The notes below the pieces were generated by a model that made no database searches, was not told where the DNA came from, and saw only the letters and a program-made list of their open reading frames with translations. From contig JAUWQD010000003.1 of the NCBI GenBank assembly GCA_030611265.1, positions 1-64,000 on the forward strand: a stretch of DNA of 64,000 nucleotides, in the 5' to 3' direction. This document shows, in pieces, positions 11,526-31,916 of this stretch. This DNA is from Methanosarcinaceae archaeon. Its GTDB lineage: Archaea > Halobacteriota > Methanosarcinia > Methanosarcinales > Methanosarcinaceae. Numbering within the stretch: the first letter of the stretch is position 1; each line of letters opens with the position of its first letter. The position numbers were made by a program, and so were the translations under genes.

Positions 11526-12125
11526 GTTAGTTAACCAAAACCAACGCGGAGCGTATCTGCGTCCATCCGCGTGCATCTGCGGTTAATTCGCAGGCATTCG
11601 GCGCATTCCAAAATCCATACACAAAAAACACACACGCCAAAAACATCAAAAAACCGCAGGCTGAGAAACACCAAAAACTCAGTATCCCAAAACCAATGTT
11701 CACCCTCAACAAGATCCAACAGTTCAAAAAGCGACACGCATTTAAGCGCCTTGAAACCACATTGATGACCATACAATTTCGAACGAAAAAAAATACGTAC
11801 CAAAAAATTGAAACACTTACACAAAACCACCCTCGAAAAAAGACGTTTCGCATCACTTCGAAGCATCATGCGGGAACCGATCGAGAAATCAGATCCTTCC
11901 AAACCCACATATTCGATCAACTCTGCGGCCCTCAGCGCCCTCGGCGGTGAATTTTGTCCCATATTCATTGAAATAACAGGATTTTGGAACCAGTTGAACA
12001 CACCAACCTATAATGCATACACAAAACTACCATAGTGATGCCACATCATATACATACATGGGCACACATTTTCATTTTTTAGCAGTGGGTGATCAAAACC
12101 AACTGAAAAAAATGGCGGTGAGATT
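11526..12125. other. Gene-free stretch with low-complexity remnants
   Basis: Nothing convincing is coded here. The segments GCGTCCATCCGCGTGCATCTG and CCCTCAGCGCCCTCGGCGGTG resemble generic intergenic repeats. A promoter for the next gene probably lies near 12000-12050, where ATA-rich DNA precedes the ATG at 12126. Confidence 0.4.
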
Positions 12126-12758
12126 ATGGAACAACAACATAGTGTGGTAAAAAAGACAAATACAAACAATGAAAGTTCAGTAACAACTAATTTGTTTGAC
12201 ATCCTCGTAAACCTTCAAGATGTCGAATTGACCGAAAATAAAGACCGGACAATGACAACCGACCTATTGGACATAACTATGGACACACACGGTGCGGAAA
12301 TAACTGAAGAACTCATCCAACTGTCCAATCAAAAAAACGACCTGTTTGATATGCTTGTAGACCTGCATGGTGCTGAAATGACAGAAGAACTTATCCACAC
12401 ATGCGGAAAAATGAATGGACTCAATTTTGGAAAACAACTTGGAAAATTTGATAATCCACAATCTGCGATCAAACATGTACATGCGCACATACAATCTCAC
12501 TGTGAAATTAATGCTGACGATGTAAAACCAAACAATAAAAAATATGCAGAAAACATTCATTTTAAAAATGGATTGATAAAACAACTTTTAAGCCACGAAA
12601 AAACAACATCCATAAATCCACTTCACATACGCACACAAGGTTTTATCGAAGGTACACTATCCTTTATGACTGGCATGCAAGTCAATATAGACATAACCAA
12701 TCCAGATAAAGACAAAATACATTTTAAACCTGAAAAAAGTTTTTTCGGACTCCTATAA
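12126..12758 (+). CDS. Hypothetical protein with N-terminal triplicated motif
   Basis: A 210-residue soluble protein not assigned to a family. Residues 20-95 contain three related helical units: NLFDILVNLQDVELTE, DLLDITMDTHGAEITEEL and DLFDMLVDLHGAEMTEEL. The C-terminal part (GFIEGTLSFMTGMQVNIDI) vaguely recalls V4R/hydrocarbon-binding domains, in which a helix and strand cradle a small ligand; I treat that as weak. It stands alone, with no signal peptide or membrane segment. Confidence 0.7.
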   Translation: MEQQHSVVKKTNTNNESSVTTNLFDILVNLQDVELTENKDRTMTTDLLDITMDTHGAEITEELIQLSNQKNDLFDMLVDLHGAEMTEELIHTCGKMNGLNFGKQLGKFDNPQSAIKHVHAHIQSHCEINADDVKPNNKKYAENIHFKNGLIKQLLSHEKTTSINPLHIRTQGFIEGTLSFMTGMQVNIDITNPDKDKIHFKPEKSFFGLL

Positions 12759-13205
12759 TTCACTAGTGTCGAATCAACTTTCCAGTGTAAATTATGAAGA
12801 TAGGTCATATGGTACAATTTCAATTTTCTAAACTCCAAAATGACCGATCGGTTTTTGCACAGTGCCGTCAGCGCACCGATTTAGGAACACACACGGGCAA
12901 ATTATACGTACATGCTGCGTACATGCGGGTGCCGATGTTAAAAAGAAAGTCACAGCAATTGACCTAAACGAAAGAAAATGGAGCATCAGTTCCTGCATAG
13001 GCGGCATATTCCACTGCCACCAAACCCACAACAACTCACAACCCAAACATGCAATTCTCATATCTGCAAATATGACGCCGCTTAAAAACCGTTTTGTATT
13101 TTGCGTTCATGGTGTAGGAACGTGCCGCGCTCTTGCGCGATCGCGTCGTTTTTTGCATCTGTCTTAACCCCTTTCATCCCGCGACATTATGGTGTTGACT
13201 TGACA
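12759..13205. other. Intergenic region with possible gene remnant
   Basis: Short frames at 12809 and 12862 encode fragments such as KKKVTAIDLNERKWSIS but lack plausible starts and composition. I read them as remnants. A GC-rich block near 13113-13150 (GGAACGTGCCGC...) is a weak member of the hairpin repeat family. Confidence 0.3.
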
Positions 13206-15149
13206 CTAGTTCTTAATTTCCTTTTTCAAAATATCCGATGAAAGCGTAAACACAATCCCCAGCATCAACAGCAAACATCCGATCCAAACCAAACTCTCAA
13301 ATGGTTTAACCAAAACATCCAGTTTAATAACATCAGACTGGATCTGATGTGGAACAGAGCCCTGAAACTCGATCTTGGTATTCGAGAGCAGACCATACCT
13401 CATATCAGGACGCGAGATAAAACCGAAATGACTGCTCTTCCAAAAACTTACAGTAGAATGATACACACTGCCGCCATTTACATCCATCTCAACATCAACG
13501 ATCTGTATCCAATCATTATCGACCTGCTCAACCCTGAAATCCAAAAAACGCATACCTATTGGTCCATCCTCTTTGTAGACACCGGTATCATCCAGACCAT
13601 AACTGAAATGATATGTGGTTGCAAAAGAAGTGCTTATAATTGCACCCATAACCACAAAGACAAAACCAATATGGATCAAATTAATACCCGTAAATCGAAG
13701 AGCTATTCTCTTATTCCTCATCCTGACATCTTTGGACATCTTAAATATGATACTTGACACTACAAAGAAAAAAGCAGGCAAGTACGAAAGAACAGAGATC
13801 GAACCCAATATATTCTTCAATAATGAATCTGAAACGAATGTAGCCACAGAATAATCATCATGTGGAACTACAATGCCCAATATCAGGGACATTAACAGAT
13901 AAACTGCACATGCATAAATCAATGTACGGGATTTTATTCTGCCATACAAAAAACAGATACCGGCAAGATAGGTTAAAACAAAAACAAGAGGATAGGAAAG
14001 GATGTTATAAAAATCAGGTAATATAACTGTTTCTTGACCCAAAAAAGCTAAAATGACGTACAAAACCGGACCCCAAAATGATATGAACGCCATTAAGATC
14101 AATATCAAGACAGTGAAATAAAAGGTATTATGCGGTCCAAAAGCGGAACTGATACTACTTGGAGCGTCATCTTTGGGCAAACCGAACCACAACACAAGGA
14201 TCAAGGTATAATCAATTACCAATGCCATAAAGAGAACAAGTATCCACCAGGTGGATGTTCCCGGAAAAGTGTGAACAGATGTGATAAGACCACTTCGTGC
14301 AACCAATGTGATAAAGATCGAACTTAAGAATGCCCCGATACACAAAAACGGAAACATTACCTTGTATTCATACCTGTTGTTAAAACGTATAACTGCATGC
14401 AACACAGCAGTCAATAAAAGCCACATACCCATTGTTGCCGATTGAGTAGGATCCCACTGCCAAAAACCATTCCAGCCAAGTAGACGATTTGCCCAGAGAC
14501 CGCCTGTGACCATGCTTATGCTCAAAAATAACCAACTAAGACGAAGATAGTTTTTTATGTCAGGGATCTTTTCCTGCCTGAGCGTAAGATAAGATAGTGA
14601 TGCAGATGCAGGAATGATGGTAAAGGCATATCCCAAAAAGGCTGTGACAATATGAGGCGGCATCAAAATATCAGCAATTGCCGGACTGATGCTGTTTCCA
14701 AACAATGGCAGGGATGCACCGCTTACAAGAAATATTGACTTAAATGGTGTCATTACAATTGTAAGAACAATTAAAAATGCACATGTTAAAAGAGCATAAC
14801 CATTTGTGAAAAGTTTTTGTCGTGAGTCCAACCCACGTTGCATAATATTAGATAGTACGATCAAAATTGAGAAAAATGCCCATAATAGATATGTGCCTTC
14901 CTGACCTACGATCATGGCACCAAGTCTGTAATATAATGACAGGTCTGCACTGTTGTGCTGCCAGACATAGAATAAACTAAAATCAAGGAATACAAATGCG
15001 TATGTCAATATAAGGACACAAAGGGTCAATGAAGCCGCTGCAACCTTTGCTGCAAGTACACCTAAGTTCGATCTGCCGATGAACATGAGTACTGCACCGG
15101 ATATTGCAGATAAAAGACCGATGTACAGTAAAATGTCACCTATGATCAT
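13206..15149 (-). CDS. ccmF: CcmF-type cytochrome c heme lyase
   Basis: A 647-residue multi-pass membrane protein of the CcmF/CcsA (HemeHandling) superfamily with about 14-15 hydrophobic segments. The tryptophan-rich heme-binding loop appears as NGFWQWDPTQSA near residue 215, with further conserved His in membrane segments. CcmF ligates heme to CXXCH motifs outside the cytoplasmic membrane. Its ATG overlaps the stop of the giant multiheme cytochrome by 4 bases, so the heme lyase is translated directly after its likely substrate. No ccmA/B/C/E is nearby; they must be elsewhere. Confidence 0.88.
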   Translation of the reverse strand: MIIGDILLYIGLLSAISGAVLMFIGRSNLGVLAAKVAAASLTLCVLILTYAFVFLDFSLFYVWQHNSADLSLYYRLGAMIVGQEGTYLLWAFFSILIVLSNIMQRGLDSRQKLFTNGYALLTCAFLIVLTIVMTPFKSIFLVSGASLPLFGNSISPAIADILMPPHIVTAFLGYAFTIIPASASLSYLTLRQEKIPDIKNYLRLSWLFLSISMVTGGLWANRLLGWNGFWQWDPTQSATMGMWLLLTAVLHAVIRFNNRYEYKVMFPFLCIGAFLSSIFITLVARSGLITSVHTFPGTSTWWILVLFMALVIDYTLILVLWFGLPKDDAPSSISSAFGPHNTFYFTVLILILMAFISFWGPVLYVILAFLGQETVILPDFYNILSYPLVFVLTYLAGICFLYGRIKSRTLIYACAVYLLMSLILGIVVPHDDYSVATFVSDSLLKNILGSISVLSYLPAFFFVVSSIIFKMSKDVRMRNKRIALRFTGINLIHIGFVFVVMGAIISTSFATTYHFSYGLDDTGVYKEDGPIGMRFLDFRVEQVDNDWIQIVDVEMDVNGGSVYHSTVSFWKSSHFGFISRPDMRYGLLSNTKIEFQGSVPHQIQSDVIKLDVLVKPFESLVWIGCLLLMLGIVFTLSSDILKKEIKN

Positions 15150-18100
15150 CTAAAACGTCTCCATAACAAGAACAATAACCCTGCAAAACCAAATGCAGGA
15201 ATAATGTCCTTTAACAGAACCTCCGTAGCGGCAACGCCACCTGGTCGTTCTACTGTGAGTACTACAACTTCTGTTTTACTCCATTTTCCGGATGAGTCTT
15301 TTACATGTAAAAAGATCGGGTGTTTATCGTATGACAATTGGGATGTATCTATCACTGCACCAAGAACAGCTGATGAATCATTTGATTTCCCGACAATATA
15401 TTCCAATGGCAAACCATATCCATCTCGACCTATTTCATCGATAAAGTATTCAGCTCGTGTCAATTTCGTGAGCTGTGGTAATACTACAGTAGCCTGCAAA
15501 AGACTTACATCGTTACCATAGACTACATCAGGTTCAATTGTGACACCAAGACGTGGTATGAACTCACTTGTTGCAAGGGTATGGAAACTAATCGAATCGG
15601 CACCGCCATGACAAATTGTACAACTTGGCGCAAAACCATGTGCAGTTCCTGCTGGTGAAAGTCCCTGTGTACCCATATTCGTGGCATTAAATGGTGGCTC
15701 TCCGCCCTGGTATGTGTGGCAATCCTTGCATTCTGTGACATTACCTCCAGTCCAATTCTCCCAGCCAGGATCCTGGACAGTACCCATTGGATAAGTGTCA
15801 TAGTGGAAACTGTTCATTCCTGATGAATTATGACATGATGTACATGTTATTGGAGATTCATTCAAAGCGGACTGTGATATGGTTGACATTGTACCACCAA
15901 TGATCGATGATGAGCTGCTGAATTCCATTAAAGCATCAGTATCATCATGACAATCACCGCATGGTTCGTAAGCTTCTTCGGATACATTACCTACGATATG
16001 AGTCAGTTCATGGAATATATCTGCATCTTCGTTGTGACAGAGTGGACATGTGGAAGTGGTTGTGTTGGATTGACCTATTTTTAATCCTGCATAATGAACA
16101 CTGCCATATTCATTGTGACAATCCTCACATTTGATGCCTTCATAAGGTTGATATTCACGTCCTTCGTGTTCAGGGTGACATTCTGTACATTCGGTGTCGT
16201 ATTTGACAGTACCTCTCAGGTAACTCTTACCAAGAACAGTTGGAGTATGATATTTACTGACACCTTCTGCAGCGTGACATGAATCACAACCCACAACTAC
16301 CTTTATACCGGATCCGTGACGCACTTCTTCGAGTTGTGTGTCAGATTTGTGTGGGAATTTTCCTTCCGTGCTGTGACATGGGAAACAGAATCCCAAAGAT
16401 TCGTTTTGATATTCCCTAACCTCCATATCGGAGTGTAATGTATTGTTGGTTGCATTATGGCAAACCCGACAGGTGTAATCATTGATTTCAAGCGTGTTCG
16501 CTTTACCGTCAGGTGCACCTGGATAGTGTGTGAGTATCGGTGTGAGATTGAACTTTTCAGCCTGCTGTTTGTCAATGTGACATGTTTCACAATCGCGTGT
16601 TATGGTTATTCCCTTGTCATGGAATGTTGTGATACCTTCCCCTGCATGACAGAGTGCACAGTCATTACTTGAATTGTGTTTTGAGACCTGTGGTGCATTG
16701 CCCCAAAGGGTTGCATTGGTCTCATCTCCATGACATACAGCACAATCCGAGGTGTTCAGTAAATTCTTCTTTGCCGAGTAATGTGATGCAGCAGCGATTT
16801 CATTTTGTGGTTTGCTACTGTTTTGTTTGTTTGAATGGCAATCCCAGCAAGTTCCACTTGTTGATATCTCAGCACCCGGATAATGTGAGTATATCGGCTT
16901 TGCACCAAATTTTGAAGATGCATGACAGGTCATGCATGATTTTGGTGTGTGGTTTCCAATATATGGTGTCGGGTGCTCGTCAGGTTCACCACCCGTGCTG
17001 TTTCCATGACAACCCCAGCATGCCTTGTTTGCATCATCGGTGATAAAACTGGTATAGGTTGTGTCGTTGTTAAGATTGACGTGCACGCTTTGTTTGAATT
17101 CATCAAGGTCGAGTAGGATCGGTGCGACTCCATTTCCTGCATGGCAACTGATACAATCAGGACTGTATCCACCAGGTGTGACAGTTGCTGAATGGAAGTT
17201 TTCTGGTTCTTCACCAACTGTTATACTTCCATCGAGTGTGAGATACTTTGCAGATATAGCAGTCTGCAATAACTTGAAGTCTCCATCGACTACTTTTTGA
17301 TCCCCTGCTATGAGATCCACATTGGTCAGTACTACGAATTTAGAATCACCTACAAAGACACTGTCAACTTTTGCACTGAATACATTGATGTCCCTATCAA
17401 GCAGTGTTTCTTCGTGTGTAATGTAATCGGAAGTACTTACGATTTCATCTTCAAGAAGTGTTTCATTTCTGTAGAGTTGCAACCGTGCATTGCTCCTCTC
17501 AATGCTCACATCTGCAACATAGACGCTAAAGCCTTCTCCAAGATCCCAATTATCACCCATAGCAATGGTTTTCTTATCACCATCTGTGAAATTGACAGTC
17601 ATTTCCATTAAGGTTACATTTTCAAGATCCTTGTCAAGCACGTAGTAGTTCATACCATCCGGCATGTTGTTGCGATATTCACTGTCATGGCATGAATAGC
17701 ATTGTTCATTCTGTGTTTCCCTGTGGATATGTGACGAAAGCATGTATCCAGACAGGTCTGCCACATAACTATTCTCTGCCGTGAATAATTGGTCTACTGT
17801 GACATTTATGATAGCAGTATCATCAATTCCAAGTCCGCTAACTTCGTATTTGATGTTACCCCCAAGACCTGCTATATCCTTTTGCACAAGTACCCCGTCT
17901 TTTTTAATTTCAAACATTGCAGCATTTGTTGTTGTTTCAATCAGAGTGATCGTATAATTATCCACAAGTTCCCACGGCTTATCAACTGTGAGAGTCTTTG
18001 TGACGAATGCGAAATCAGTGTTGTTCCTCTGGTCAGGTGCATTGCCCCACCCATCTACGCTTCCATTGTGACACTGGATACAATCTTTAGTATCGAGTGT

Positions 18101-21100
18101 GACCCTTGGTGCATAGTGAGATGATCCCATTGCAGTTGCACTTGAAAGTTTACTTTCATGGCACAATATACAACTGGCATCTGTTGGAACATTGCTCTGC
18201 TGTGGCAAGTGCTTGAAAACCAATGGTGTTATGCCAAAACCGGTGATATGGCAGTCATCACAATCTTTTGCCATCATGATTCCATGTTTCATGGTCACAT
18301 TGATCGTTACAGTGAATGGTGCATCCCCTGTGATATCCCGTACCACAGCACTCCAGTTACCAGCTTGTGGTGAACTGATGTTTATCGAATTGCCACTATA
18401 GTTTGTTCCATTTGGTGAATGCAATGTCAGACCAAGTGTACTATCTCCTTCCCAAACAAGTGTAGCATTCAGGGATGTGATATTAGATATCATCGTGAAG
18501 TTGTATGCAAGTGATTCCTGATTGACTATTATGCCTTTGAATTCCTGTCTTGGTGTGTGACAATCTGCACAGTTAACGGCAGAATGAACTGATACTGTAT
18601 ATTCGCTGGATGTGACTCTCTTATCAGTCAAACCATCGTGACAACCAAGACATTCGCTTGAGTCACCACTTATTGACGGTACTTCCAAACTTGCATCGTG
18701 GATCTTACCTGCACCGTGACAGGAACTACAGTTGTCACCATGAGTTGTGGTCTTGGTAATGATGCTGGCGTTGTGGAAGATCGAATTGGAATTGCCATGG
18801 CATGCGAGACAGTAATCGGTACTGTTGATGTTATTCCTGTATTGACTGATGATTGTGTAGTTCTTGCCGTAGTGGGAAACTAAATGAGTACCGTTCTTAT
18901 CGGTTGGAGCACCACTGACTTTCATCTCTGTAAGGTTGTGACACTGGATACATGAACTGGCATTATCTGTGGCATTGGTTGCCTGAATATCAATGCCGTT
19001 GATGAAGTGTTCCTCAACACTGACGCTTTGGTTAAGTGTGGTGTTACCGTGACAATAGACATTGTCATAACATGTTCGAACTGCTGTAAGGTTAGAAAGG
19101 TGAATATCGGGTTGAGTTCCGTTACCGTGACATGACCAACATGCTTTGCTGGAATTGTAAACTAGAATTGTACTGTTGGTAGCTTCACTGTTCAGGTTGA
19201 TGTGAATACTATCGTTGAAAAGAGTGAAGTTAATGAATTTATTGATACCTGCATTTCTGTGACAATAAAGACAATCGGGCCCTGTTGCATCAGGCGATAA
19301 TTTTTCAGCATGGAAATCTACTGGAGTTTGACCATCAGTTGTGTGGCAAATGTAACATCCATCATCGGCAAAATAATTCGTGAAGTTTCCGTGGTTATTC
19401 TGTGTGGCATTTCCCCATATCGTTGCATTTTGTGTGGAGTTATGGCACATACCGCAATTAGAAGTATCAAATAGCGGATTTGTAATCCCGATAACTTCAC
19501 CCTGTGATCTACTCAAACCATAATGGGACACATTAGAAAATATCGTATTCCCCAATACCATTTCTGAAGTATCATTAAAATATGGATCAATGCTGTTGAC
19601 GTGGCAGTCAACACATCCGCCCGCTCCACTTATATTGGTTTTCACAGTTGAAGAGTTGGAATAGTGTGCATATATTCGTGGTGGGAGTTTGTTTGGTGGA
19701 TAACTGGCCGCCAGCCATGAGTCCCCGTCATGGGTAGCATCGACCCATTCACTGCTTCTGCCATGACAATCTTCGCATGTCCAAGGTTTCATGCTCGGAT
19801 CCGATACTCCATTACGATCCCCCATACCTTCCGGTTCATGCCCATCACTCTGGTGACAACCCCAGCACGGTTTTGATCTTGGATCGATACCAGGGACCAG
19901 TTCTATGGTATTGTTGCCCATATTTCCGTGTATGCCCTGGGCGATCGAGGTTACATTGACCAGAGATTGTATGTGGTATATACTGTTTACATCATGACAG
20001 TCCACGCAGTTCGGACCTCCGCCCGAGTATACAGAGCTATTGTGAAAATGTGCAATGCTGTTTTCATTGACAATACCAACATAATCCGGAAGCACATGAC
20101 AGTAAGTGTAACACTCCGAAATATTGGTAGTATCTGCCCCGTACATATTCCCGCTTACATTCATGGCATTGCCCCAGATAGCACCGTTTGTTGAGTTTGC
20201 GTGGCAGAATAAACAATCAGAAGTATTGACCAGCGGGTTTGCAATATCATAATCTTCACCCTGCGATCTGCTCAATCCATAGTGTGCGACATCGCCCGTG
20301 GTTGTTCTGCCTGTGAAATCCTGAAAACCACCTGTATATTTCCATACAGTTAGTGCTCCGATCGCTGAATCCGGAAGTCTGCTGGGATTGTGACAGTCAG
20401 CACATGAACCATTGGTTCCAACATTTGTCTGGATGTATACCGACCCTGCACCCTTGGTAGTAGGACCATGGTTATCGATTGCTGCAACAACCCCCTCCGT
20501 ATGCGGGGGCTGGCCACTAACGGGTCCGTGACATTTAGGACACCTATATGGAGCCAGTGTTCTATCCGGATGAAATCCTGGATATGGGGGTGTGCCATTA
20601 GTACTGTGACATGACCAGCAAATCGCATTATCGGTGGAAATATTCGAGGCATTATAGCCGCGCTCTGTACCCCACTCAGTCCAGTTCATGCCGGTTCCCT
20701 GAAGTTCACCACCATTGCGGAAATCCAAGCTTAAGTTGGTATGCATGGCAAGCTTAAGTGCAGATACATTCAAAATTTTACGGATTGCATCAGGATCACT
20801 GCTGTCATGACACCCCACGCAATCCGGACCACCTGCGGATTCGTAGTTTATAAATTCTCGATATACAAATTGTTTAGGAAGTTTTAGATGACATCCGCCA
20901 CAGGTTGATTGATCAAAACCCCCGGCTTGATTCAATGTTGAATTATCCCAATCAGCAGGATTATCCAACATAATCTGATTCGTGTAGTCCCCATAAGGAT
21001 AAAGACTGCCTGGAGCCGTAATATTTGTAATATAAGTCCAATCTAAACTTGGGCGTGTCACTGCTGGATTATTAGAACCGTGAGGATTGTGGCAATATTT

Positions 21101-24100
21101 ACATGTGTACCTCTTATGCCCAGGATGTAAATTATTGTTGGATCGCGTTATCGGCAAATCCAGTCCATCCCCGAATCCTGTCCTACCATAATATTCATCC
21201 CTGAAGTTCGTCTGATTATTAAAGCTGCCAAGATATCCAGTATCTGTCATACTTGCTACAAGTTTCTCCTCCAGATGACATACAAAACAGAGTGCATAAT
21301 CAGCTGAATCATACACTTTTAAACCAACATCTACATAGTTTCTATGCAAATCAAAGCGATAATCTGTGCCATGATTGCCATGGCAGGAAAAACATGACAT
21401 TTTCCCATCTCCAAGGTCGTGATGGGTAATCTGATTGAACTCTGTTTCCTGATCCAGTGTCGCCCTGACTGTGTCTGTATTGTGGCAATTCTGGTTGCCA
21501 CTGCCATTATAACACAATTGGGGACTTTGCTGAATAAGCATATCATTTCCGCTACCGGTTCCATGGGGCGTACTCGCAGAATCGTTCTCATCATGGCAAT
21601 CAATACACCGCCCGGGAGTATATGGATCTGACAAGTCGGTCAGGTTTGCAGTATAATCAGTCCAATGCACCATAGTTGTGTAAGTGAGTTTTTCCATGTG
21701 ACAGTAGTAACATTTACCATTCGGGGTATAACCTGCATTTACGATAATAGTAACACCGGGATTATGAATGGTGGTTGTGATGTTTCGATATAACTTATCA
21801 TCAATACTTTGCAGCTTGTCCCACATATTGACAACTGAGAAATTCATTGGAGTGGATTGATAATTGACCTTCCCGGTTGCATTTTCCTTGTATTCGATGA
21901 TTGGAAGCCAGTTATCATCGGAATTCGGAGGTCCCCAGTAATCCATCGAATTATTGCTCAATCTTCCGTTGGCATTCGGAACCTGACCATCCCATACAAG
22001 TATTCCTCCAACAGCACTATAATCGCCATACCTGACAGTAAGATTTCCCCATATTGGTTCTATGTGTTTATTGTCCCATGAAAACACATCAATACGCCAC
22101 ATCAATGTAATGCCCGAAGTATCTTCATAACCAACATTTGTTTTGTTGAATACAGTATCAAGCGTTACCAATCTGGTATCGCCGGTTAGATAGAACGTGT
22201 AATTGGTTGCTGTAGTTTCGTTGGGTGCAATGACATTATTGTTAGAGTCATTAATGCAAATATCGAATTCAGCACTGTTCCGGATTGAGTGAACATTACC
22301 AATTATAGTATTGTTCATTGAATATTCTATCAAACGGATGGCTGAGAGTAAATAATTGGTGATATTGTTGATTGATAAACTATTGTTCAACGATGTTTCC
22401 AATAGTATGCCTTCAGGACTGCCGGTAACATTGTTGCCTATGATGTTATTGTAATTTGAAAAATTGAAATATATGCCGGATATCACGTTTGATCCAAAAA
22501 TATTATTGGTAATTTCATTATAATTAGAAATATCTAAATAGATTCCTCGATCTTCGCTTGTGTTAATACTGTTTGAATTGTTGATAAAATTATTTGAAGA
22601 ATTGTATAAATATATTCCTTGATAGTTATTCATCACATTATTGTTTGAAATCGTATTATCTGTAGAATCATACAGAAAAATACCGGATGGGATGCCACCA
22701 TCGATGTATTTGTTATTTGAAAGAATATTATTCTCTATTAGAAAATTTGAACATTGTATCAAACTAATCTTGCCGACATTGCTCACATTTGCAGTTGTTA
22801 AAGGTTCAACCGTTACAGACTGCATCGTATTATCATTGAAGTAATAATATATTTTTTCACCGTTTACGGTGTTATTCTGATAAATATAATTACCATACTG
22901 CCCGAATTTAATATCGAATCCATAACCTGCAGTGGCCCCCATAGTTATAGTATTATTAGAAAATGTATTGCCATCAGCCTGTATAGAGATGCCGTTATCA
23001 CCATTGTTGATTAATATGTTATTTGAGATGCGATTTCCTGCAGAATTCACCATAGTACCATTTAACGTATTTAGTGATATGTTATTGTTATTGACTGAAT
23101 TATTAGTACCAGAGAGAATAGTCACGCCATTTCTCAGATCGTAAACTTCACCTCCATCATTGGATAAGATCTCATTATTTGAGATATTGTTGTGAGAACC
23201 GGCATCTATTGTAATACCACCCCAATCATTATTTGTGATATCATTATCCCTAATTGTGTTGTAGCTACTGCCACCATCTAAATAAAATCCAGATTTTCCT
23301 TTGTTCTTTACTGAATTGTTGATCAAATTGTTAGAATCGGCATCGTCGAGCCTAATTCCATTGGAACTGCCACTGTATATTAGGATATTTTCGATTAGAT
23401 TGTTGGAGTTGGAACTTGAAACCAATATTCCATCAACATCATCACCGGTTGCTGTTACTGTATTATTGACCAGAGCGTTATTATTGGAATTGGAAAGTTT
23501 TATTCCTAATGCAATATCGGTGCCCCCAGACACGACATTATTCATCATGTTGCTGTTATGGGAAGCGGAAAGTAAAATTGCAGTTTCATCGCTGTTTGTT
23601 ACGATGTTATTGGTAATATTAGCTTGACTTGATGCAAGAGCAATTCCATAATAGTTGCTATTGGAGAAAATATTATTGTCGATGGTGACATTTTCAGTTG
23701 AACTTACCAAGCGGATTCCGTCACCATCTGTTACAAATGTATTATCTTTGATTGAAACATTGGAACAATTATATAGCGTGATATGTCCAACATTTTCCCC
23801 GACAATTAAAACGCCGTTAGTATTGTACTTATAGTACACCAAATCGCCGTTTACCTTATTGCTGGCATCTATGTCATTAGTATAATTTCCTGAAACGTAC
23901 AGACCGCGTAAAGTGCCGTTTATATTATTATCACGTAAGATATTATTCCCGGATGATGCAATATTGATGCCCATTGGCCCATTATTTATGATGGTGCTAT
24001 TAGTGAGGTTAACATTTCCAGAAGTGGAAGTTAAAGAGATACCTTCGTACCGATTATTACGTATAATACTGTTGACAATTTTCAGATTATTTGAAGTATC

Positions 24101-24538
24101 AATTTGCAATTTATTACTATATTCAATAGTACTGTCACTTACATAACCAAAACTTCCATCAAAATATTTAAAATCATAATAATTGGAGTAACTAGTAATA
24201 GTTGATCCACCAGTCACATTCATGGTTCCATTAAAGTTGACATTTATGCCGTATCCCCACATCCTTATTGTTGCATTAACCAAATTCAATACAGCACCGT
24301 CTTTAACATTGATATTAGCATGCACAGTACTATCATTATTGCTAAGTACAGTGCTCCAATGGCTGCAATTGGTAGAAGTAATATCATCGATCCCACTACT
24401 TGCATTATATATTACGGCCCCTGCAACCCCGCAAAACATTAAAAATGATGCAATACAAAACGCACAGGCAACAAGTATAGGCACTGCTCGGGCAGGGTAT
24501 CCAGTATATGTGTTTGTAGTGATGGTGATTGGACTCAT
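15146..24538 (-). CDS. Giant S-layer-associated multiheme c-type cytochrome (45 CXXCH)
   Basis: 3,130 residues. Order: signal/anchor near 15-42; right-handed beta-helix (NosD/PbH1-like, NNxI.NN repeats) about 60-830; heme domain about 960-2,950. I count 45 CXXCH, plus CX3CH (CYTYCH), CX5CH (CYDNVYCH) and CX8CH variants. Inserted are a pre-peptidase-like beta domain and two segments like the methanosarcinal S-layer domain (TWELGEGYSL-type: DNWDLGEGFSVYVADVSI). The C-terminus is Ig-like, ending in a membrane helix with RR. Many N-x-S/T sites suggest surface glycosylation. ANME-2 S-layer-fused cytochromes are proposed to move electrons to partner bacteria; here that role is inferred. Heme units repeat internally (HYGLSRSQGE twice), showing growth by duplication. 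It lies between a pentaheme cytochrome and ccmF. Confidence 0.93.
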   Translation of the reverse strand: MSPITITTNTYTGYPARAVPILVACAFCIASFLMFCGVAGAVIYNASSGIDDITSTNCSHWSTVLSNNDSTVHANINVKDGAVLNLVNATIRMWGYGINVNFNGTMNVTGGSTITSYSNYYDFKYFDGSFGYVSDSTIEYSNKLQIDTSNNLKIVNSIIRNNRYEGISLTSTSGNVNLTNSTIINNGPMGINIASSGNNILRDNNINGTLRGLYVSGNYTNDIDASNKVNGDLVYYKYNTNGVLIVGENVGHITLYNCSNVSIKDNTFVTDGDGIRLVSSTENVTIDNNIFSNSNYYGIALASSQANITNNIVTNSDETAILLSASHNSNMMNNVVSGGTDIALGIKLSNSNNNALVNNTVTATGDDVDGILVSSSNSNNLIENILIYSGSSNGIRLDDADSNNLINNSVKNKGKSGFYLDGGSSYNTIRDNDITNNDWGGITIDAGSHNNISNNEILSNDGGEVYDLRNGVTILSGTNNSVNNNNISLNTLNGTMVNSAGNRISNNILINNGDNGISIQADGNTFSNNTITMGATAGYGFDIKFGQYGNYIYQNNTVNGEKIYYYFNDNTMQSVTVEPLTTANVSNVGKISLIQCSNFLIENNILSNNKYIDGGIPSGIFLYDSTDNTISNNNVMNNYQGIYLYNSSNNFINNSNSINTSEDRGIYLDISNYNEITNNIFGSNVISGIYFNFSNYNNIIGNNVTGSPEGILLETSLNNSLSINNITNYLLSAIRLIEYSMNNTIIGNVHSIRNSAEFDICINDSNNNVIAPNETTATNYTFYLTGDTRLVTLDTVFNKTNVGYEDTSGITLMWRIDVFSWDNKHIEPIWGNLTVRYGDYSAVGGILVWDGQVPNANGRLSNNSMDYWGPPNSDDNWLPIIEYKENATGKVNYQSTPMNFSVVNMWDKLQSIDDKLYRNITTTIHNPGVTIIVNAGYTPNGKCYYCHMEKLTYTTMVHWTDYTANLTDLSDPYTPGRCIDCHDENDSASTPHGTGSGNDMLIQQSPQLCYNGSGNQNCHNTDTVRATLDQETEFNQITHHDLGDGKMSCFSCHGNHGTDYRFDLHRNYVDVGLKVYDSADYALCFVCHLEEKLVASMTDTGYLGSFNNQTNFRDEYYGRTGFGDGLDLPITRSNNNLHPGHKRYTCKYCHNPHGSNNPAVTRPSLDWTYITNITAPGSLYPYGDYTNQIMLDNPADWDNSTLNQAGGFDQSTCGGCHLKLPKQFVYREFINYESAGGPDCVGCHDSSDPDAIRKILNVSALKLAMHTNLSLDFRNGGELQGTGMNWTEWGTERGYNASNISTDNAICWSCHSTNGTPPYPGFHPDRTLAPYRCPKCHGPVSGQPPHTEGVVAAIDNHGPTTKGAGSVYIQTNVGTNGSCADCHNPSRLPDSAIGALTVWKYTGGFQDFTGRTTTGDVAHYGLSRSQGEDYDIANPLVNTSDCLFCHANSTNGAIWGNAMNVSGNMYGADTTNISECYTYCHVLPDYVGIVNENSIAHFHNSSVYSGGGPNCVDCHDVNSIYHIQSLVNVTSIAQGIHGNMGNNTIELVPGIDPRSKPCWGCHQSDGHEPEGMGDRNGVSDPSMKPWTCEDCHGRSSEWVDATHDGDSWLAASYPPNKLPPRIYAHYSNSSTVKTNISGAGGCVDCHVNSIDPYFNDTSEMVLGNTIFSNVSHYGLSRSQGEVIGITNPLFDTSNCGMCHNSTQNATIWGNATQNNHGNFTNYFADDGCYICHTTDGQTPVDFHAEKLSPDATGPDCLYCHRNAGINKFINFTLFNDSIHINLNSEATNSTILVYNSSKACWSCHGNGTQPDIHLSNLTAVRTCYDNVYCHGNTTLNQSVSVEEHFINGIDIQATNATDNASSCIQCHNLTEMKVSGAPTDKNGTHLVSHYGKNYTIISQYRNNINSTDYCLACHGNSNSIFHNASIITKTTTHGDNCSSCHGAGKIHDASLEVPSISGDSSECLGCHDGLTDKRVTSSEYTVSVHSAVNCADCHTPRQEFKGIIVNQESLAYNFTMISNITSLNATLVWEGDSTLGLTLHSPNGTNYSGNSINISSPQAGNWSAVVRDITGDAPFTVTINVTMKHGIMMAKDCDDCHITGFGITPLVFKHLPQQSNVPTDASCILCHESKLSSATAMGSSHYAPRVTLDTKDCIQCHNGSVDGWGNAPDQRNNTDFAFVTKTLTVDKPWELVDNYTITLIETTTNAAMFEIKKDGVLVQKDIAGLGGNIKYEVSGLGIDDTAIINVTVDQLFTAENSYVADLSGYMLSSHIHRETQNEQCYSCHDSEYRNNMPDGMNYYVLDKDLENVTLMEMTVNFTDGDKKTIAMGDNWDLGEGFSVYVADVSIERSNARLQLYRNETLLEDEIVSTSDYITHEETLLDRDINVFSAKVDSVFVGDSKFVVLTNVDLIAGDQKVVDGDFKLLQTAISAKYLTLDGSITVGEEPENFHSATVTPGGYSPDCISCHAGNGVAPILLDLDEFKQSVHVNLNNDTTYTSFITDDANKACWGCHGNSTGGEPDEHPTPYIGNHTPKSCMTCHASSKFGAKPIYSHYPGAEISTSGTCWDCHSNKQNSSKPQNEIAAASHYSAKKNLLNTSDCAVCHGDETNATLWGNAPQVSKHNSSNDCALCHAGEGITTFHDKGITITRDCETCHIDKQQAEKFNLTPILTHYPGAPDGKANTLEINDYTCRVCHNATNNTLHSDMEVREYQNESLGFCFPCHSTEGKFPHKSDTQLEEVRHGSGIKVVVGCDSCHAAEGVSKYHTPTVLGKSYLRGTVKYDTECTECHPEHEGREYQPYEGIKCEDCHNEYGSVHYAGLKIGQSNTTTSTCPLCHNEDADIFHELTHIVGNVSEEAYEPCGDCHDDTDALMEFSSSSSIIGGTMSTISQSALNESPITCTSCHNSSGMNSFHYDTYPMGTVQDPGWENWTGGNVTECKDCHTYQGGEPPFNATNMGTQGLSPAGTAHGFAPSCTICHGGADSISFHTLATSEFIPRLGVTIEPDVVYGNDVSLLQATVVLPQLTKLTRAEYFIDEIGRDGYGLPLEYIVGKSNDSSAVLGAVIDTSQLSYDKHPIFLHVKDSSGKWSKTEVVVLTVERPGGVAATEVLLKDIIPAFGFAGLLFLLWRRFR

Positions 24539-24677
24539 ATCAATATCTAACTATGTATGGGTATTTTTTATCTCGTTGCAGTACCAATTGTCGAAATGGT
24601 TCACATTTATTACATCCGGCAATTTTGTTGATTTTTCACACATAATTCAAATGTAGCATTGACCCTTGCATCATAAT

Positions 24678-25187
24678 TTATTCCATGTAAGTCATCTTGT
24701 GAATAGTCTGGATATCCTGAATGTGACAAATGTCGCATGTGTAGCCACGTGTCATGTGTATTGTGATTATGTTTCCATAACTCGGGTCGGAAGGATTGGG
24801 ATAACCATGGCAAGAATCACATATCGACAAACTGTCAGGTAACTTTTGTGGGATTATTTGATCACCAACGTGGCATGTGACACATGTGAAGTTGTCAGAA
24901 GTGTCTTGTAATTTCTGCATGTGCAGGTCATGTATTCCGGTTCCGTGGCAAGCATCGCAGTAATTGCTGCCGTTTATGTGTTTTTTCTTATTCTCCGGAT
25001 TTACGTGACAGACGTTACAATTGACCGTTTGGTCAGGTATTGCTTCAAATTCGGGTATAATTACTTCTTGTTCGATATTATCATCTTTATCTACAAAAAC
25101 ATCCGTTGTTTCCGCTAGATAGATAACACTAAAAATAAGTAAAATACCTACAAATACTATCATTGATAAGTAATTTTTATCACTCAT
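24678..25187 (-). CDS. Membrane-anchored pentaheme c-type cytochrome
   Basis: A 169-residue protein. One hydrophobic segment (residues 8-25) serves as uncleaved anchor or signal. It is followed by an acidic linker and five CXXCH sites (CNVCH, CDACH, CVTCH, CDSCH, CDICH) with matching distal His residues. It is the first gene of the minus-strand cytochrome unit, 139 bases before the giant cytochrome. Inferred role: passing electrons from membrane carriers to the outer giant cytochrome. The spacing of hemes resembles small NapC/tetraheme-like proteins, but no specific family is certain. Confidence 0.88.
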   Translation of the reverse strand: MSDKNYLSMIVFVGILLIFSVIYLAETTDVFVDKDDNIEQEVIIPEFEAIPDQTVNCNVCHVNPENKKKHINGSNYCDACHGTGIHDLHMQKLQDTSDNFTCVTCHVGDQIIPQKLPDSLSICDSCHGYPNPSDPSYGNIITIHMTRGYTCDICHIQDIQTIHKMTYME

Positions 25188-25241
25188 ATTTCAAAACACC
25201 CGATTGTCGTATTCGAATAGTGTGTTACACACCCAAGTAAC

Positions 25242-25275
25242 ACATGTTAACATGTATTATATAATTATTTATAAT
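25242..25275 (-). promoter_or_regulatory. Promoter with 14-bp palindromic operator for the cytochrome operon
   Basis: A perfect palindrome ACATGTTAACATGT spans 25242-25255. Immediately upstream on the minus strand is a TATA-like TTATAAATAATTATATAA (25256-25275). The palindrome would lie between the TATA box and the expected start site, a classic repressor position in Archaea. A second imperfect dyad, GTGTTAC...GTAACAC, sits around 25220-25243. Confidence 0.5.
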
Positions 25276-25727
25276 TTTATTTAACACGACACAACAGTAC
25301 TCAATAACATTATTTATTAAACCTATATGAACCTATTTTGTAATTATATTTACATTAAATATTGACATTTTTCATTTTCAGAAAAAAATCCCCGTTTATA
25401 GAAGATTTACATCGTATCCTCCACATGTCCATCCCATCGAAAACATCTGCCGCATTTACTTTTTAGATTTTCGGAATCCTGACGTTTGTCGAGAAACATA
25501 GAGTCATTCCATATATTGTAAAACTGTTTTACCGCACTTGCCAACAGGCATCTGCATCAACATACTAAGAATAGGCCGTATCATCATTAGAATATACATG
25601 CAATTGATTTGACTGCACCACAGCAATCCTGCAGGTAATTGCTGTCGTTCTTTTGCCGATATAGCGCATCAAAAAATGCAATATTCAAATAATGTTGAAA
25701 AATTGTATGTGGTAAAAATAGATGTTA
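25276..25727. other. Intergenic region upstream of the cytochrome operon
   Basis: AT-rich, with no frame I would call. It is the original chromosomal sequence next to the displaced 3' end of tRNA-Glu, so it may hold the old tRNA terminator (T-rich runs at 25700-25725 on the minus strand). Confidence 0.4.
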
Positions 25728-25770
25728 TGCTCCGATGGGGATTTGAACCCCATTGGTTTCGGGCGGTTGG
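25728..25770. other. attL: tRNA-Glu 3' remnant plus inverted arm site
   Basis: Bases 25728-25752 match the T-arm/acceptor end of tRNA-Glu. No matching 5' acceptor (GCTCCGA on the minus strand) lies within reach, so this is a displaced tRNA end and not a second tRNA. The arm site follows at 25757-25770. Confidence 0.85.
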
Positions 25771-25776
25771 ATGCAT

Positions 25777-25858
25777 GAGCCTGCCAGGACTTGTAAGCAA
25801 TGAACCGGCAGACCGATTATTTTTAAAATTTATCGACAGGCTCCGGTGTTGACGCACC
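25777..25858. ncRNA. Structured three-way-junction-like sequence beside attL
   Basis: GAGCCTG (25777-25783) pairs with CAGGCTC (25837-25843). Inside lie two hairpins: GCC.GG/CC.GGC closing near 25782-25810, and CGAT/ATCG around an A/T loop (25813-25835). A further hairpin GGTG-TTGACG-CACC follows at 25845-25858. It could be a structured RNA or a DNA structure used in excision or replication. Strand unknown; no family recognised. Confidence 0.35.
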
Positions 25859-25914
25859 GCGCACCAACGTAATAGATAATTGTTTTATGGTTATATAAGC
25901 GTTATGATTAAGAT

Positions 25915-25968
25915 TAAAAAACTTTATATATTAATGCTTACAATGTTATTGGCGGGAAGGTTTTGACG
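25915..25968 (+). promoter_or_regulatory. Leading promoter and dyad of the element's left operon
   Basis: AAAACTTTATATATTAAT near 25917-25934 is a good archaeal TATA region. AAGGTTTTGACGAACCTT (about 25958-25975) forms a 6-base inverted repeat just downstream, a candidate operator ahead of the small-gene run starting at 26001. Confidence 0.45.
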
Positions 25969-26000
25969 AACCTTTACTAAACAATAGGACTTGTAAAAAA

Positions 26001-26192
26001 ATGGCAAAAGAAGTCAATAAAGCATTAGCCGAAGGCAACGCCAAGCGAACAACACGACGCGGATATTACCGCAGAATGAAATATTTTAGGATAGAGCTGA
26101 CACGATTTAGTAATGGTTTTCGAAAGACTGAGCCTAAACGCTGTTTGAAATGTGCATATGCGAAATGCAGGTGTGAAGGGGTGGCTGCATGA
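26001..26192 (+). CDS. Small basic Cys-motif protein
   Basis: 63 residues, strongly basic (KRTTRRGYYRRMKYFR), ending with CLKCAYAKCRC, a probable single zinc knuckle. DNA or RNA binding is plausible. It is the first gene of the element's left operon, and its stop overlaps the next ATG (ATGA). No family recognised. Confidence 0.6.
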   Translation: MAKEVNKALAEGNAKRTTRRGYYRRMKYFRIELTRFSNGFRKTEPKRCLKCAYAKCRCEGVAA

Positions 26193-26350
26193 TCTGTCCG
26201 GGACCTGACGCAGATTCATACAGGATCTGTGTTCACTGCAGGGCATGTTATCCGGGACTTTCCCCCCGGGTGCAAGAGATCCTTGATTTGAGTATGTCAA
26301 AAATAATAATTACTTCACAACAAAAGTTAGTTGAAGAGGTGATGGCATGA
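26189..26350 (+). CDS. Small Cys-rich protein
   Basis: 53 residues. The N-terminal CPGPDADSYRICVHCRACYPG holds four Cys and a His that could bind zinc; the rest is a short helix. ATGA overlaps with both neighbours support real translation. Too short for reliable family assignment. Confidence 0.55.
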   Translation: MICPGPDADSYRICVHCRACYPGLSPRVQEILDLSMSKIIITSQQKLVEEVMA

Positions 26351-26439
26351 GCAATCAGGATATGAACTTTCATCTGGGCCTGCTCGTTTATGCGATCGTT
26401 ATTGGATCTATAACCGGTTATGTGGTGGTGTCAACATGA
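26347..26439 (+). CDS. Single-pass membrane micropeptide
   Basis: 30 residues, with one hydrophobic segment LGLLVYAIVIGSITGYVVV. It is linked at both ends by ATGA overlaps to coding neighbours, which is the main reason to believe it. Could be a minor virion membrane peptide or a regulator; nothing in the sequence decides. Confidence 0.5.
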   Translation: MSNQDMNFHLGLLVYAIVIGSITGYVVVST

Positions 26440-26630
26440 GCACAACACGAATGCGGAAGTGTTGCCCGAAGTGTGACAGTGTCAATGTACAGAGGCGCAT
26501 GCGAATAAAACCCAGATACAAATGTACTCAATGTTTTTGGGAAGGTGATATCGTCAGCACCAAAGAAGTAAAGACTCCCAAGAGTTACAGGCGTGCATGC
26601 TTCGAAAAAGTGTTACCCCAGGTTGATTGA
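26436..26630 (+). CDS. Zinc-ribbon protein
   Basis: 64 residues with CCPKCDSVNVQRRMRIKPRYKCTQCFWEG, a CxxC-x17-CxxC ribbon in the style of transcription or transposon accessory factors. The basic surroundings suggest nucleic-acid binding. It ends directly before the winged-helix gene at 26631, consistent with one transcript. Confidence 0.7.
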   Translation: MSTTRMRKCCPKCDSVNVQRRMRIKPRYKCTQCFWEGDIVSTKEVKTPKSYRRACFEKVLPQVD

Positions 26631-27290
26631 ATGCTCCGGCATGATCAGAACCCCATCAGTACTCCTACCCCTACTGTGCAGATCTGCAAGATAAGAGGTT
26701 TCTCTCTGGATATCCTTGGAGAACTGTATAGTAAGAATGTGTTAACCACTCCTGAAATTGCAGCAGCACTTGACTGTAAAATACCTTATGCAAGAGTGTA
26801 TTTACACCGACTTTATCAATATGGTTGCATAGAAAGGAAAGCACGTTGGGGATGGATAATCGAACCTCTTGGTACCGATATTTTAAACCTTAATAATAAT
26901 AATAATAATAATATTGATAACACAAAGATAACAGAAAGGACACAGAAAGATAACACAAAGATAACAGAAATGTCCAACGATTCACGCACAACCGTTGAGA
27001 GTAGGCAATTGAACCTATCTCTCTATGAAACAGATCCAAACGTAACCGAACCAGAGCGAGGGGTAGTAATGCTAATGGTATCTCATTATGAGCGTACCGG
27101 TGAGAAATACCGCTACTTCAAGGACATGTATGATTTTTGTGAGCAAGCAGGTGTATCAGCTGTAGGTGTCATGGAATTGCTTGCAAAGCTCAAGGAAGAA
27201 GGTGTGATCTACATCCGGAAAGAAGAAATGCTTGGAATGTGGAAGATAGGACTAAAAGTAAATTTCATAGAGAGGTTACAACATTGTTGA
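26631..27290 (+). CDS. Winged-helix regulator of the element
   Basis: 219 residues. Residues 25-85 form a winged helix (ILGELYSKNVLTTPEIAAALDCKIPYARVYLHRLYQYGCIERK). A low-complexity linker follows, with an Asn run coded by AAT/AAC repeats and repeated DNTKITE units. A second helical domain occupies 140-219 (VGVMELLAKLKEEGVIYIRK). The N-terminal domain resembles the C-terminal winged helix fused to the recombinase at 37692 (EIAKHFNKKPNYIRPYLHRLEKQG). The same pair is therefore split here and fused there. It ends 8 bases before the integrase. Confidence 0.75.
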   Translation: MLRHDQNPISTPTPTVQICKIRGFSLDILGELYSKNVLTTPEIAAALDCKIPYARVYLHRLYQYGCIERKARWGWIIEPLGTDILNLNNNNNNNIDNTKITERTQKDNTKITEMSNDSRTTVESRQLNLSLYETDPNVTEPERGVVMLMVSHYERTGEKYRYFKDMYDFCEQAGVSAVGVMELLAKLKEEGVIYIRKEEMLGMWKIGLKVNFIERLQHC

Positions 27291-27298
27291 GGTAAAAT

Positions 27299-28261
27299 AT
27301 GAAACATCTCTATGAATTTCTGGACGATTGTGCAGCGAGGGGTCTATCCTCTCGTACCACATCCACGTACAAAAGCAATGTAAGCCATTTCCTTGATCAT
27401 ATCGACAAAGATCCCACAGAGATACAGATGGATGATCTCCGGGCATTCCTGGCACATCTGAGGACCATGTCGTACACCGTAGGACATCAACACCGGCAAG
27501 GTGTCGCGCCGGCAACACTGAATGCATACTACTCAGCGATCAGCAGTTATTACGACTTCCTGATGTGGGAAGATATCATCGATTCCAATCCTATCCCGAA
27601 GTTCCGGAAACGGTATCTCAGAATCAAACCACAGAGGAACGGAGAGAACACAAGGCAACTGATCAGTATCAACACAATGAGAGAACTGATCCGTTTGTCA
27701 GAGGATCCACTCAGTAAGGCCTTAATGACATTCGCTGCAAAAACAGGCCTTCGAAAAGGCGAACTCATTGCCATGGATATTACGGACCTGAACTTCGAAC
27801 GTGCAGAGTTCACAATCCCGGCAAAAGCAAAGCGCACAAATCGCCTTGGCTTCATGGATGATGAAACGATCATAATCCTTCAGCAATACCTCGAATGGCG
27901 TGAGCCCAGGGCAAAAGATAACGCGCTGTGGATATCTCCATTTGGTCACAGAATGGGGAAGGACGGACCTTATGATATCATAACCTGCTATGCCCGGATG
28001 CTCGGGATCCATGACGCAAGAGGATCCTTAAACAAAAAATTTACGACTCACTGCTGCAGGCACTTTTTCACAACTCACCTCAGACGATCGGGAATGCCAA
28101 GGGAATTTATCCAGGAGCTCCGGGGAGATCGCAGGGGTGATGCGATAGACATATACGACCACATAGATCCGGAAGAACTCCGGAGATCCTACCTGCAGCA
28201 CGTCCCAAGGTTCGGACAGGTTGACAGATGCCAGGCAACATTAACGGAGATGATACATTGA
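27299..28261 (+). CDS. Tyrosine recombinase (integrase 1)
   Basis: 320 residues. A SAM-like core-binding domain spans 1-100, then the catalytic domain with Arg152 (TGLRKGE), Lys near 177, His251-x-x-Arg254 (HCCRHF) and Tyr286 (IYDHI). All catalytic residues are present. It is a close paralogue of the recombinase at 37692, with long identical stretches such as GENTRQLISI. Likely the integrase for the 25728/41374 att pair, although the right-half copies compete for that role. Start: ATG 27299 after the AGGT-rich leader. Confidence 0.92.
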   Translation: MKHLYEFLDDCAARGLSSRTTSTYKSNVSHFLDHIDKDPTEIQMDDLRAFLAHLRTMSYTVGHQHRQGVAPATLNAYYSAISSYYDFLMWEDIIDSNPIPKFRKRYLRIKPQRNGENTRQLISINTMRELIRLSEDPLSKALMTFAAKTGLRKGELIAMDITDLNFERAEFTIPAKAKRTNRLGFMDDETIIILQQYLEWREPRAKDNALWISPFGHRMGKDGPYDIITCYARMLGIHDARGSLNKKFTTHCCRHFFTTHLRRSGMPREFIQELRGDRRGDAIDIYDHIDPEELRRSYLQHVPRFGQVDRCQATLTEMIH

Positions 28262-28461
28262 GAAAATTAACAGATGAAGAAATAGAGATCCTCGCAGAAA
28301 AGTATGCTTGTGAATTGATAAGAATAGGAGTTCTTGTTTGGTCTGGCCAGATAGAACGCGCTGATCGCTTGGCTGAGAAGATCCTGACAAAAGAAGGATT
28401 ATTAGTTCGCAATAGTTCAAACAACGATTCGAACCCCAAAATTTACAATGATAATTATTGA
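28258..28461 (+). CDS. Small helical protein overlapping the integrase stop
   Basis: 67 residues from TTG at 28258 (overlapping the integrase TGA), preceded by a GGAG ribosome-binding match. An ATG at 28228 in the same frame is the alternative. The acidic helical content (LTDEEIEILAEKYACELIRIG) could make it an excisionase-like accessory or regulator; that is position-based inference only. Confidence 0.5.
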   Translation: MRKLTDEEIEILAEKYACELIRIGVLVWSGQIERADRLAEKILTKEGLLVRNSSNNDSNPKIYNDNY

Positions 28462-28530
28462 TAATTTCGTACATTTTTTATTGTATTTTGCAGTACAAGT
28501 CCTTGTAGTTTGTTGTACGGATCCTTGCAC

Positions 28531-28782
28531 ATGATTTCAAAAGACTTGTACTTAAAAATAATATCCTTGTACCGCGCTGGAGCCACCCCTTACGCTATCT
28601 CAAGTGAGCTTAAAATCAATTACCGCACAGCGAAACGGTACATCGCAGCACATGAGGTAATAGTCGCGGAAATCTCTGAATCCTTGTACTCTTGTATTTT
28701 GGCAAAAACTGAACAAAACGACGAAAACCTGCAAATGTTTGCACATAAAATACAACAAAATACAATACCTCAAGAGGAGTGA
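28531..28782 (+). CDS. Helix-turn-helix protein
   Basis: 83 residues. A resolvase/Hin-like HTH sits at the N-terminus: IISLYRAGATPYAISSELKINYRTAKRYI. It is paralogous to the minus-strand gene at 33487-33741. Upstream DNA (28480-28560) carries repeated TTGTAC/GTACAA words that could be its operator. ATG 28531 is preferred over 28510 because the HTH starts directly after it. Confidence 0.65.
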   Translation: MISKDLYLKIISLYRAGATPYAISSELKINYRTAKRYIAAHEVIVAEISESLYSCILAKTEQNDENLQMFAHKIQQNTIPQEE

Positions 28783-28784
28783 TC

Positions 28785-29078
28785 ATGAAACAATCTAACA
28801 ATCCGGATGAAAATACCCAAACAAGTTCTCTGGCCAACGACATTAAAAGGAATTTTGGCATAGATGTTGGGGAGATTGGAACAGAACTTGGCAAGGATAT
28901 CCTCAAGGAGAATATCCTTGGGCGCAAACCAAAAAATACCGCACCCCGATCGAAGTTCGGGCGAACCCTCGAAGCCCTCACGAATGCCTGGTGGGTCCCG
29001 GCAGCCGTCTACTTCTCATTAGTGATCGCAATAATAGGCGCGAAGGTCCTGGCAAAGCTGGCAGGGGTGGAGATATGA
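28785..29078 (+). CDS. Small protein with C-terminal membrane helix (NFGID family)
   Basis: 97 residues. A polar N-terminus contains DIKRNFGIDVGEIGTELGKDIL, a basic middle follows, and then one membrane helix (VPAAVYFSLVIAIIGAKVL). The NFGID region recurs in the minus-strand gene at 35465-35665, so this is a small element-specific family. SD GAGGAG precedes ATG 28785. First gene of the putative virion block. Confidence 0.6.
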   Translation: MKQSNNPDENTQTSSLANDIKRNFGIDVGEIGTELGKDILKENILGRKPKNTAPRSKFGRTLEALTNAWWVPAAVYFSLVIAIIGAKVLAKLAGVEI

Positions 29079-29442: not shown

Positions 29443-29528
29443 CACCAAATATTAACATTTTTGATAGGTTTATATTCTTTTTTTCCATTCTTGAATTACT
29501 AACCTGGCATGTGCCAGGAGGGTTTCTA

Positions 29529-29657: not shown

Positions 29658-29661
29658 CCTT

Positions 29662-29766: not shown

Positions 29767-29768
29767 TT

Positions 29769-30937: not shown

Positions 30938-30947
30938 GGTGGTTAGC

Positions 30948-31914: not shown

Positions 31915-31916
31915 TT

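Follow-up and report, generated by a model that had tools for sequence, protein, structure and literature searches.

An ANME-3 S-layer cytochrome that appears to join the front of one giant multiheme protein to the rear of another

For the methane cycle, it is still unsettled how electrons leave ANME cells for their partners. In a stretch of 64,000 nucleotides from a Methanosarcinaceae archaeon (GenBank assembly GCA_030611265.1, contig JAUWQD010000003.1; here called the window), one gene encodes a giant cytochrome in which heme motifs, S-layer domains and a long beta-helix lie in a single chain, and a first-pass annotation took the beta-helix to be an addition to an S-layer cytochrome. Where such a combination comes from, and what it would do, are the questions that this locus raises.

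Layout of the cytochrome

The gene occupies 15146..24538 on the minus strand, to which the coordinates of its parts below also refer; it starts with ATG and runs as one uninterrupted frame of 3130 aa, as had been annotated. The earlier count of 45 CXXCH motifs is likewise correct (over 500 residue shuffles, the average is 0.118 and the highest count 2), and the motif positions run from aa 943 (first) to aa 2973 (last). Three additional motifs with other spacings, CX8CH (1009), CX3CH (1476) and CX5CH (1823), all recur in the orthologue from HMMV2, and the first two are also found in a fused protein of genome G086 and in the MHC-C of genome G039, so that the protein could carry as many as 48 hemes. 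The description of the protein as one of the larger multiheme proteins is fair, yet it holds no record: the available text of two papers gives 86 heme motifs for an ANME-2c fosmid protein (PMC9012536) and 113 for a Methanoperedenaceae protein (PMC7327174). Domain searches recovered the annotated NosD-like beta-helix at the N-terminus (Pfam NosD, E 3.1e-36; Beta_helix, E 6.7e-36) and the S-layer-type domains (PF07752, E 8.8e-14, two subdomains), together with an MtrC/MtrF domain (E 2.5e-46) and c7/c3-type heme domains (Cytochrome_C7, E 7.3e-41).

Read from the N-terminus, the protein begins with a hydrophobic stretch, a probable signal sequence (aa 14-47, 24398..24499; hydropathy scan), followed by a right-handed, NosD-like beta-helix of apparent MHC-C derivation (~aa 45-830, 22049..24406), recognized by Pfam, NCBIfam, periodicity and identity to MHC-C proteins. 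The rungs of this region have a period of ~22-24 residues and, at a rise of 0.48 nm per rung, the ~28 rungs over aa 131-770 would give a helix roughly 13 nm long. Single-sequence AlphaFold models were of very low confidence both for aa 31-945 (mean pLDDT 42.1) and for aa 1985-2480 (mean pLDDT 31.7), and none of 33 results from a fold search with the former reached E<=0.001. Behind the outer heme arms lie two tandem S-layer subdomains (~aa 2181-2265 and 2318-2414, 17297..17998), which match the same part of PF07752; the first alone scores 27.0 bits, under the Pfam cut-off of 30. A profile of seven MHC-B-type proteins matches the S-layer protein MA0829 (structure 3u2g) with E 3.6e-5. Between the subdomains sits a lone CXXCH (aa 2280-2284, 17687..17701), whose two cysteines and histidine are unchanged in all seven MHC-B-type proteins aligned, in agreement with the heme that Chadwick et al. 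2022 place between the subdomains of ANME S-layer cytochromes (PMC9012536, available text). An inner heme arm with 17 CXXCH motifs follows (aa 2462-2977, 15608..17155), conserved in the MHC-B-type alignment, and the annotated C-terminal anchor corresponds to a hydrophobic stretch at aa 3106-3126 (15161..15223), seen by a simple hydropathy scan only.

An orthologue and two parent genes

Among 15 loci from a genome contig scan, only L012 matches the protein over its full length: 3,132 residues, 45 CXXCH motifs and 95% identity throughout. Its record, 'Methanosarcinaceae archaeon isolate HMMV2', appears to be the same as genome G001 of our set (the coordinates of a neighbouring 169-aa gene are identical), and its accession belongs to the series that Chadwick et al. 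2022 give for ANME-3 sp. HMMV2. Judged from this orthologue, we assign the organism of the window to ANME-3, which bears out the earlier suggestion of an ANME protein that fuses hemes with S-layer domains. As two gene families meet here in repetitive heme modules and the assemblies are fragmented, the join could have been produced by a chimeric assembly or a mis-binned contig. This is extremely improbable, mainly because HMMV2, an independent assembly, has the identical join and is collinear with the window over 12,248 bp at 96.0% DNA identity, across the whole gene; the frame is also open all along.

The protein is already known in kind because Chadwick et al., in one sentence, describe an HMMV2 polypeptide with features of both MHC-B and MHC-C, outside their three categories (PMC9012536, available text); the window adds a further genome of the genus. 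We infer that the large HMMV2 MHC drawn in that paper is the L012 ORF. The drawn protein has the same order of parts as that of the window, in a different genome of the same genus; the text, however, puts the MHC-C features at the C-terminus and those of MHC-B at the N-terminus, whereas in the sequence here MHC-C is N-terminal. In the literature searched, no description of an MHC-B/MHC-C fusion was found besides this paper. New here, and likewise found nowhere in our literature search, are the tracing of the protein to two genes with separate ancestries, a second fusion in another family with another junction, and the co-occurrence of the two gene types in 21 of 21 genomes.

On comparison with its relatives, the protein appears to be spliced from two giant cytochromes, each of which has its own gene in most of those relatives, with residues 1 to ~1760 assigned to MHC-C and those from ~1860 on to MHC-B. 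When aa 901-3130 were compared with 60 relatives, partial matches in large ORFs fell into two classes, one spanning residues 2 to ~1083 of this query and the other ~756 to 2230. Proteins of the second class have 2125-2159 aa and 34-35 motifs, with CcmF immediately behind (n=5 compared), which is the layout of MHC-B; CcmF2 adjoins MHC-B in the account of Chadwick et al. (PMC9012536, available text). Those of the first class have 2316-2565 aa and, in G043, G047, G039 and G053 (complete N-terminus), are devoid of an anchor-like stretch, which is the layout of MHC-C; the one scanned, from G043, contains the Pfam beta-helix. Over aa 931-1740 of the window protein, identity is 59-67% with MHC-C proteins and 75% with the G086 protein; over aa 1901-3130, it is 84% with the unfused 2139-aa MHC-B of a congener, G002.

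Identity to MHC-C falls past residue ~1760, and identity to the G002 MHC-B climbs from ~1840. Accordingly placed between the MHC-C-derived heme arm (aa 943-1760, 19259..21712) and the MHC-B-derived outer heme arm (aa 1863-2157, 18068..18952) is a junction zone of ~100 residues (~aa 1760-1863, 18950..19261) that clearly belongs to neither parent. A breakpoint scan with nine parent pairs put the best points at 1808 to 1997, and at 1808, 1863 and 1863 with the closest MHC-B parent, G002. The zone fits both parents poorly and is itself a heme module that also resembles the inner arm, which a join between repeats would explain; the join probably arose by recombination between repeated heme modules common to both gene types.

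The rear half resembles ANME MHC-B in its S-layer subdomains with the linker heme between them, its 17-heme inner arm, its C-terminal transmembrane helix (by hydropathy) and the CcmF2 gene beside it. In place of the N-terminal, peptidase M6-like, heme-free region of MHC-B, however, the window protein has the beta-helix: compared with the MHC-B of G002, which has an InhA-like MAM match in Pfam, the M6/MAM-like N-terminal domain and the first ~9 heme motifs are gone. The front half resembles ANME MHC-C in its signal sequence, its beta-helix and its heme arm with CX3CH. MHC-C has neither S-layer domain nor C-terminal membrane anchor, whereas the window protein has both, and MHC-B sequence replaces the C-terminal hemes, the last 13 motifs of the G039 MHC-C being absent. 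The idea of a beta-helix added to an S-layer cytochrome is thus not supported: the beta-helix is the normal N-terminus of ANME MHC-C, and would have arrived with the ~800-residue heme arm as the MHC-C front.

Separate histories of the two halves

Trees of the two halves conflict. In that of the front half (LG+G4, 17 rows kept from 24 match rows, with the partial rows of G044 (two), G045, G052 (two), G074 and G079 left out and the second G039 copy retained), the window, HMMV2 and G086 form a clade at 100/100; the clade is the same without the long row, and a constraint joining the window to family f2 is rejected. In that of the rear half (16 of 44 match rows kept, leaving out a partial row of G062 and every row with 34-41% identity), the window and HMMV2 group with G002 at 100/100, with f2 alongside, and a constraint joining them to G086 is rejected (p-AU 1.55e-6). 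This conflict indicates that the rear half is the resident MHC-B of the genus and that the front half has another ancestry, common to a fusion in another family. At the DNA level, window positions 13231-18742 match the MHC-B/CcmF contig of G002 at 84.3%, the match ending inside the cytochrome gene (18742), and the far flank at 24676-25673 matches a different G002 contig at 81-82%; for the 5.9 kb in between, neither G002 contig gave a DNA-level match. The G002 assembly is 83% complete, so a separate MHC-C could have been missed there.

The distribution of the halves was surveyed across 185 genomes of the order, with aa 931-1740 as front probe (E<=1e-40) and aa 1901-3130 as rear probe (E<=1e-60). 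The front half was matched in 21 genomes and the rear half in 38, and 21 of the 21 front-half genomes also contain the rear half. In three of the 21 (the window genome G000, G001 and G086) a single frame encodes both, and in the other 18 the frames are separate, some of them cut by contig ends; MHC-B and MHC-C share a contig in at least four genomes (G043, G047, G056 and G044). As an alternative to a splice, ordinary divergence would start from a single ancient gene type that combined beta-helix and S-layer domains, later split into MHC-B and MHC-C in other lineages, and the ANME-2c ERB4 fosmid protein with 86 heme motifs, described as having S-layer and pectin-lyase-like domains in one polypeptide, would fit this (Chadwick et al., PMC9012536, available text). 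Given the conflict between the front and rear trees, the separate frames in 18 of 21 genomes and a congener MHC-B with a complete N-terminus of its own, we regard such divergence as very unlikely and retain the splice of two genes.

The fusion in G086, a genome of family f5 (probably Methanoperedenaceae), has 3346 aa, 50 CXXCH motifs, a beta-helix front and an MHC-B rear, with CcmF adjoining. It is the sister of the window protein in its front half, but it differs in having five more motifs, a rear half of another lineage and a different junction, at ~aa 1920-1950 of its own sequence; compared with the window junction, it leaves MHC-C later and joins MHC-B nearer its start (~740-755). With the Pfam S-layer model, this protein gave no match at E 0.01 or better, although its rear aligns with MHC-B throughout. 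CcmF lies directly behind the G086 fusion and a small cytochrome divergently in front, an arrangement that deletion of the interval between MHC-C and MHC-B in a G056-like cluster would leave; f4 genomes have another order, with MHC-B and CcmF ahead of MHC-C.

Two separate joins would account for these differences, but a single fusion is a plausible competitor: a G086-like fused gene would have entered ANME-3, where the resident MHC-B overwrote its rear and some heme repeats were lost, the differing junctions being secondary. The single front-half clade of window, HMMV2 and G086 (100/100) speaks for it, and because the G086 junction lies further into MHC-C and earlier in MHC-B, loss of an internal segment from a G086-like fusion would yield the window form. 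On the other side, the rear halves do not group, and transfer, replacement and deletion would all be needed, as against two separate joins. The reading of the protein as a conduit, set out below, is unaffected by this choice.

On the same strand, overlapping the cytochrome gene by 4 bp, is a CcmF paralogue of the CcmF2 type (13206..15149), 82% identical to the CcmF beside the G002 MHC-B. Upstream lies a small multiheme cytochrome of 169 aa (24678..25187, minus strand), with relatives beside MHC-C or the fusion in several ANME-type genomes. Its import together with the MHC-C part was considered and rejected: it is resident, because the congener G002 carries it at 78% identity with flank synteny at the DNA level. 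Signal peptidase and 8xTMH-type genes adjoin the MHC-B of G002 but not the window gene, and the nearest counterpart of the 8xTMH-type gene in the window genome is a distant relative at 31%. Flanking repeats of at least 25 bp were not found around the cluster within 12000-27000. A 141-bp dispersed repeat at 12850-12990 has four matches in its own genome and 41 in HMMV2, where it also stands at the edge of contig L012; notable single-strand folding was not found for this element. A mobile-element region at 26631-41252, upstream of the cytochrome cluster, contains tyrosine integrases (27299-28261, 37692-39080 and 39058-40323) and a resolvase (40737-41252) and ends near tRNA-Glu (41373-41448).

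Further observations concern other genes of the window and other giant cytochromes. The window holds a DUF3800-X RNA (Rfam RF02984, 35064-35133) just behind a DUF3800 gene (34433-35047), a 1246-aa protein with a NACHT domain and a long HEAT-repeat array (1390-5130), resembling a STAND-type sensor, and a protein with FrhB-type and sulfite-reductase-type parts (52422-54341), similar to F420-dependent sulfite reductase. Elsewhere in the same genome, contig C36 encodes a second giant cytochrome (L027:4317-13799; 3160 aa, 32 CXXCH) with MG2 and other Ig-like domains and a divergent CcmF-like gene beside it. In G050, an MHC-B-type protein of 5428 aa and 52 CXXCH motifs has a very long heme-free front with MG2 (L093:2818-19104); a similar long-front layout in G106, again with MG2 in front, is split into frames of 1964 aa and 3441 aa (L101:3564-19844). 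G039 encodes a second MHC-C-like paralogue of at least 2988 aa with 40 CXXCH motifs, near a small cytochrome (L192:4033-12999).

A possible path for electrons across the S-layer

The order of parts suggests, with good probability, that the protein is an S-layer electron conduit anchored in the membrane, with an MHC-C arm and its beta-helix in place of the original outer arm. From the membrane outward it would consist of the anchor, 17 hemes, an S-layer subdomain, the heme at aa 2280, the other S-layer subdomain, the outer arm and the beta-helix tip, so that 17 hemes would lie inside, one in the layer and 27 outside; with the three differently spaced motifs, the outer arm would hold 27 to 30 hemes. 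Most of the hemes and the beta-helix would then be outside, much as the first-pass annotation had proposed in placing a heme wire beyond the S-layer. Electrons from membrane carriers may first reach the 17 hemes of the inner arm, in the space beneath the S-layer, then pass the layer via the heme between the two subdomains, and proceed over the 27 to 30 outer hemes to the beta-helix tip, which would touch partner cells, matrix or other cytochromes. This flow, by which the protein would work like MtrCAB, is inferred from the sequence, and a role of the beta-helix as adhesin or spacer is a guess, here as in the literature.

The weak point of this path is the layer itself: on the two sides of the S-layer heme are gaps of 127 and 182 residues that contain no heme motif, and an interruption of the wire would be most serious here. 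These gaps, the large N-terminal beta-helix and the association that Chadwick et al. draw, in the available text, between this type of domain and carbohydrate binding and host attachment would suit a protein that mainly serves adhesion or partner recognition, with hemes for redox storage rather than a trans-S-layer wire. We consider this unlikely. Heme spacing around the S-layer is nearly identical across the compared MHC-B proteins, the unfused ones (n=5) having gaps of 127-131 and 181-184 residues at the same place. Moreover, among eight contigs of the window genome with an S-layer match, CXXCH occurs only in the ORF described here, two of the others being cut by contig ends; within this 98%-complete assembly, it may therefore be the sole heme-bearing S-layer protein of the cell. 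The conduit thus remains our preferred assignment.

That two giant cytochromes occur naturally fused is an argument for both acting in one pathway. More tentatively, MHC-B and MHC-C could be two segments of one outward wire in ANME generally, with MHC-C as the outer segment that docks on S-layer-anchored MHC-B; the basis is that MHC-C was never found without MHC-B in the genomes of the order searched (21/21). The two would have been joined perhaps twice, each time shedding terminal modules that separate proteins would need to dock. The fusion fixes the order of the segments as membrane anchor, inner hemes, S-layer, outer hemes and beta-helix tip. It also indicates that the outer arms of S-layer conduits can be swapped between families, which would bear on how preferences for partners and acceptors evolve.
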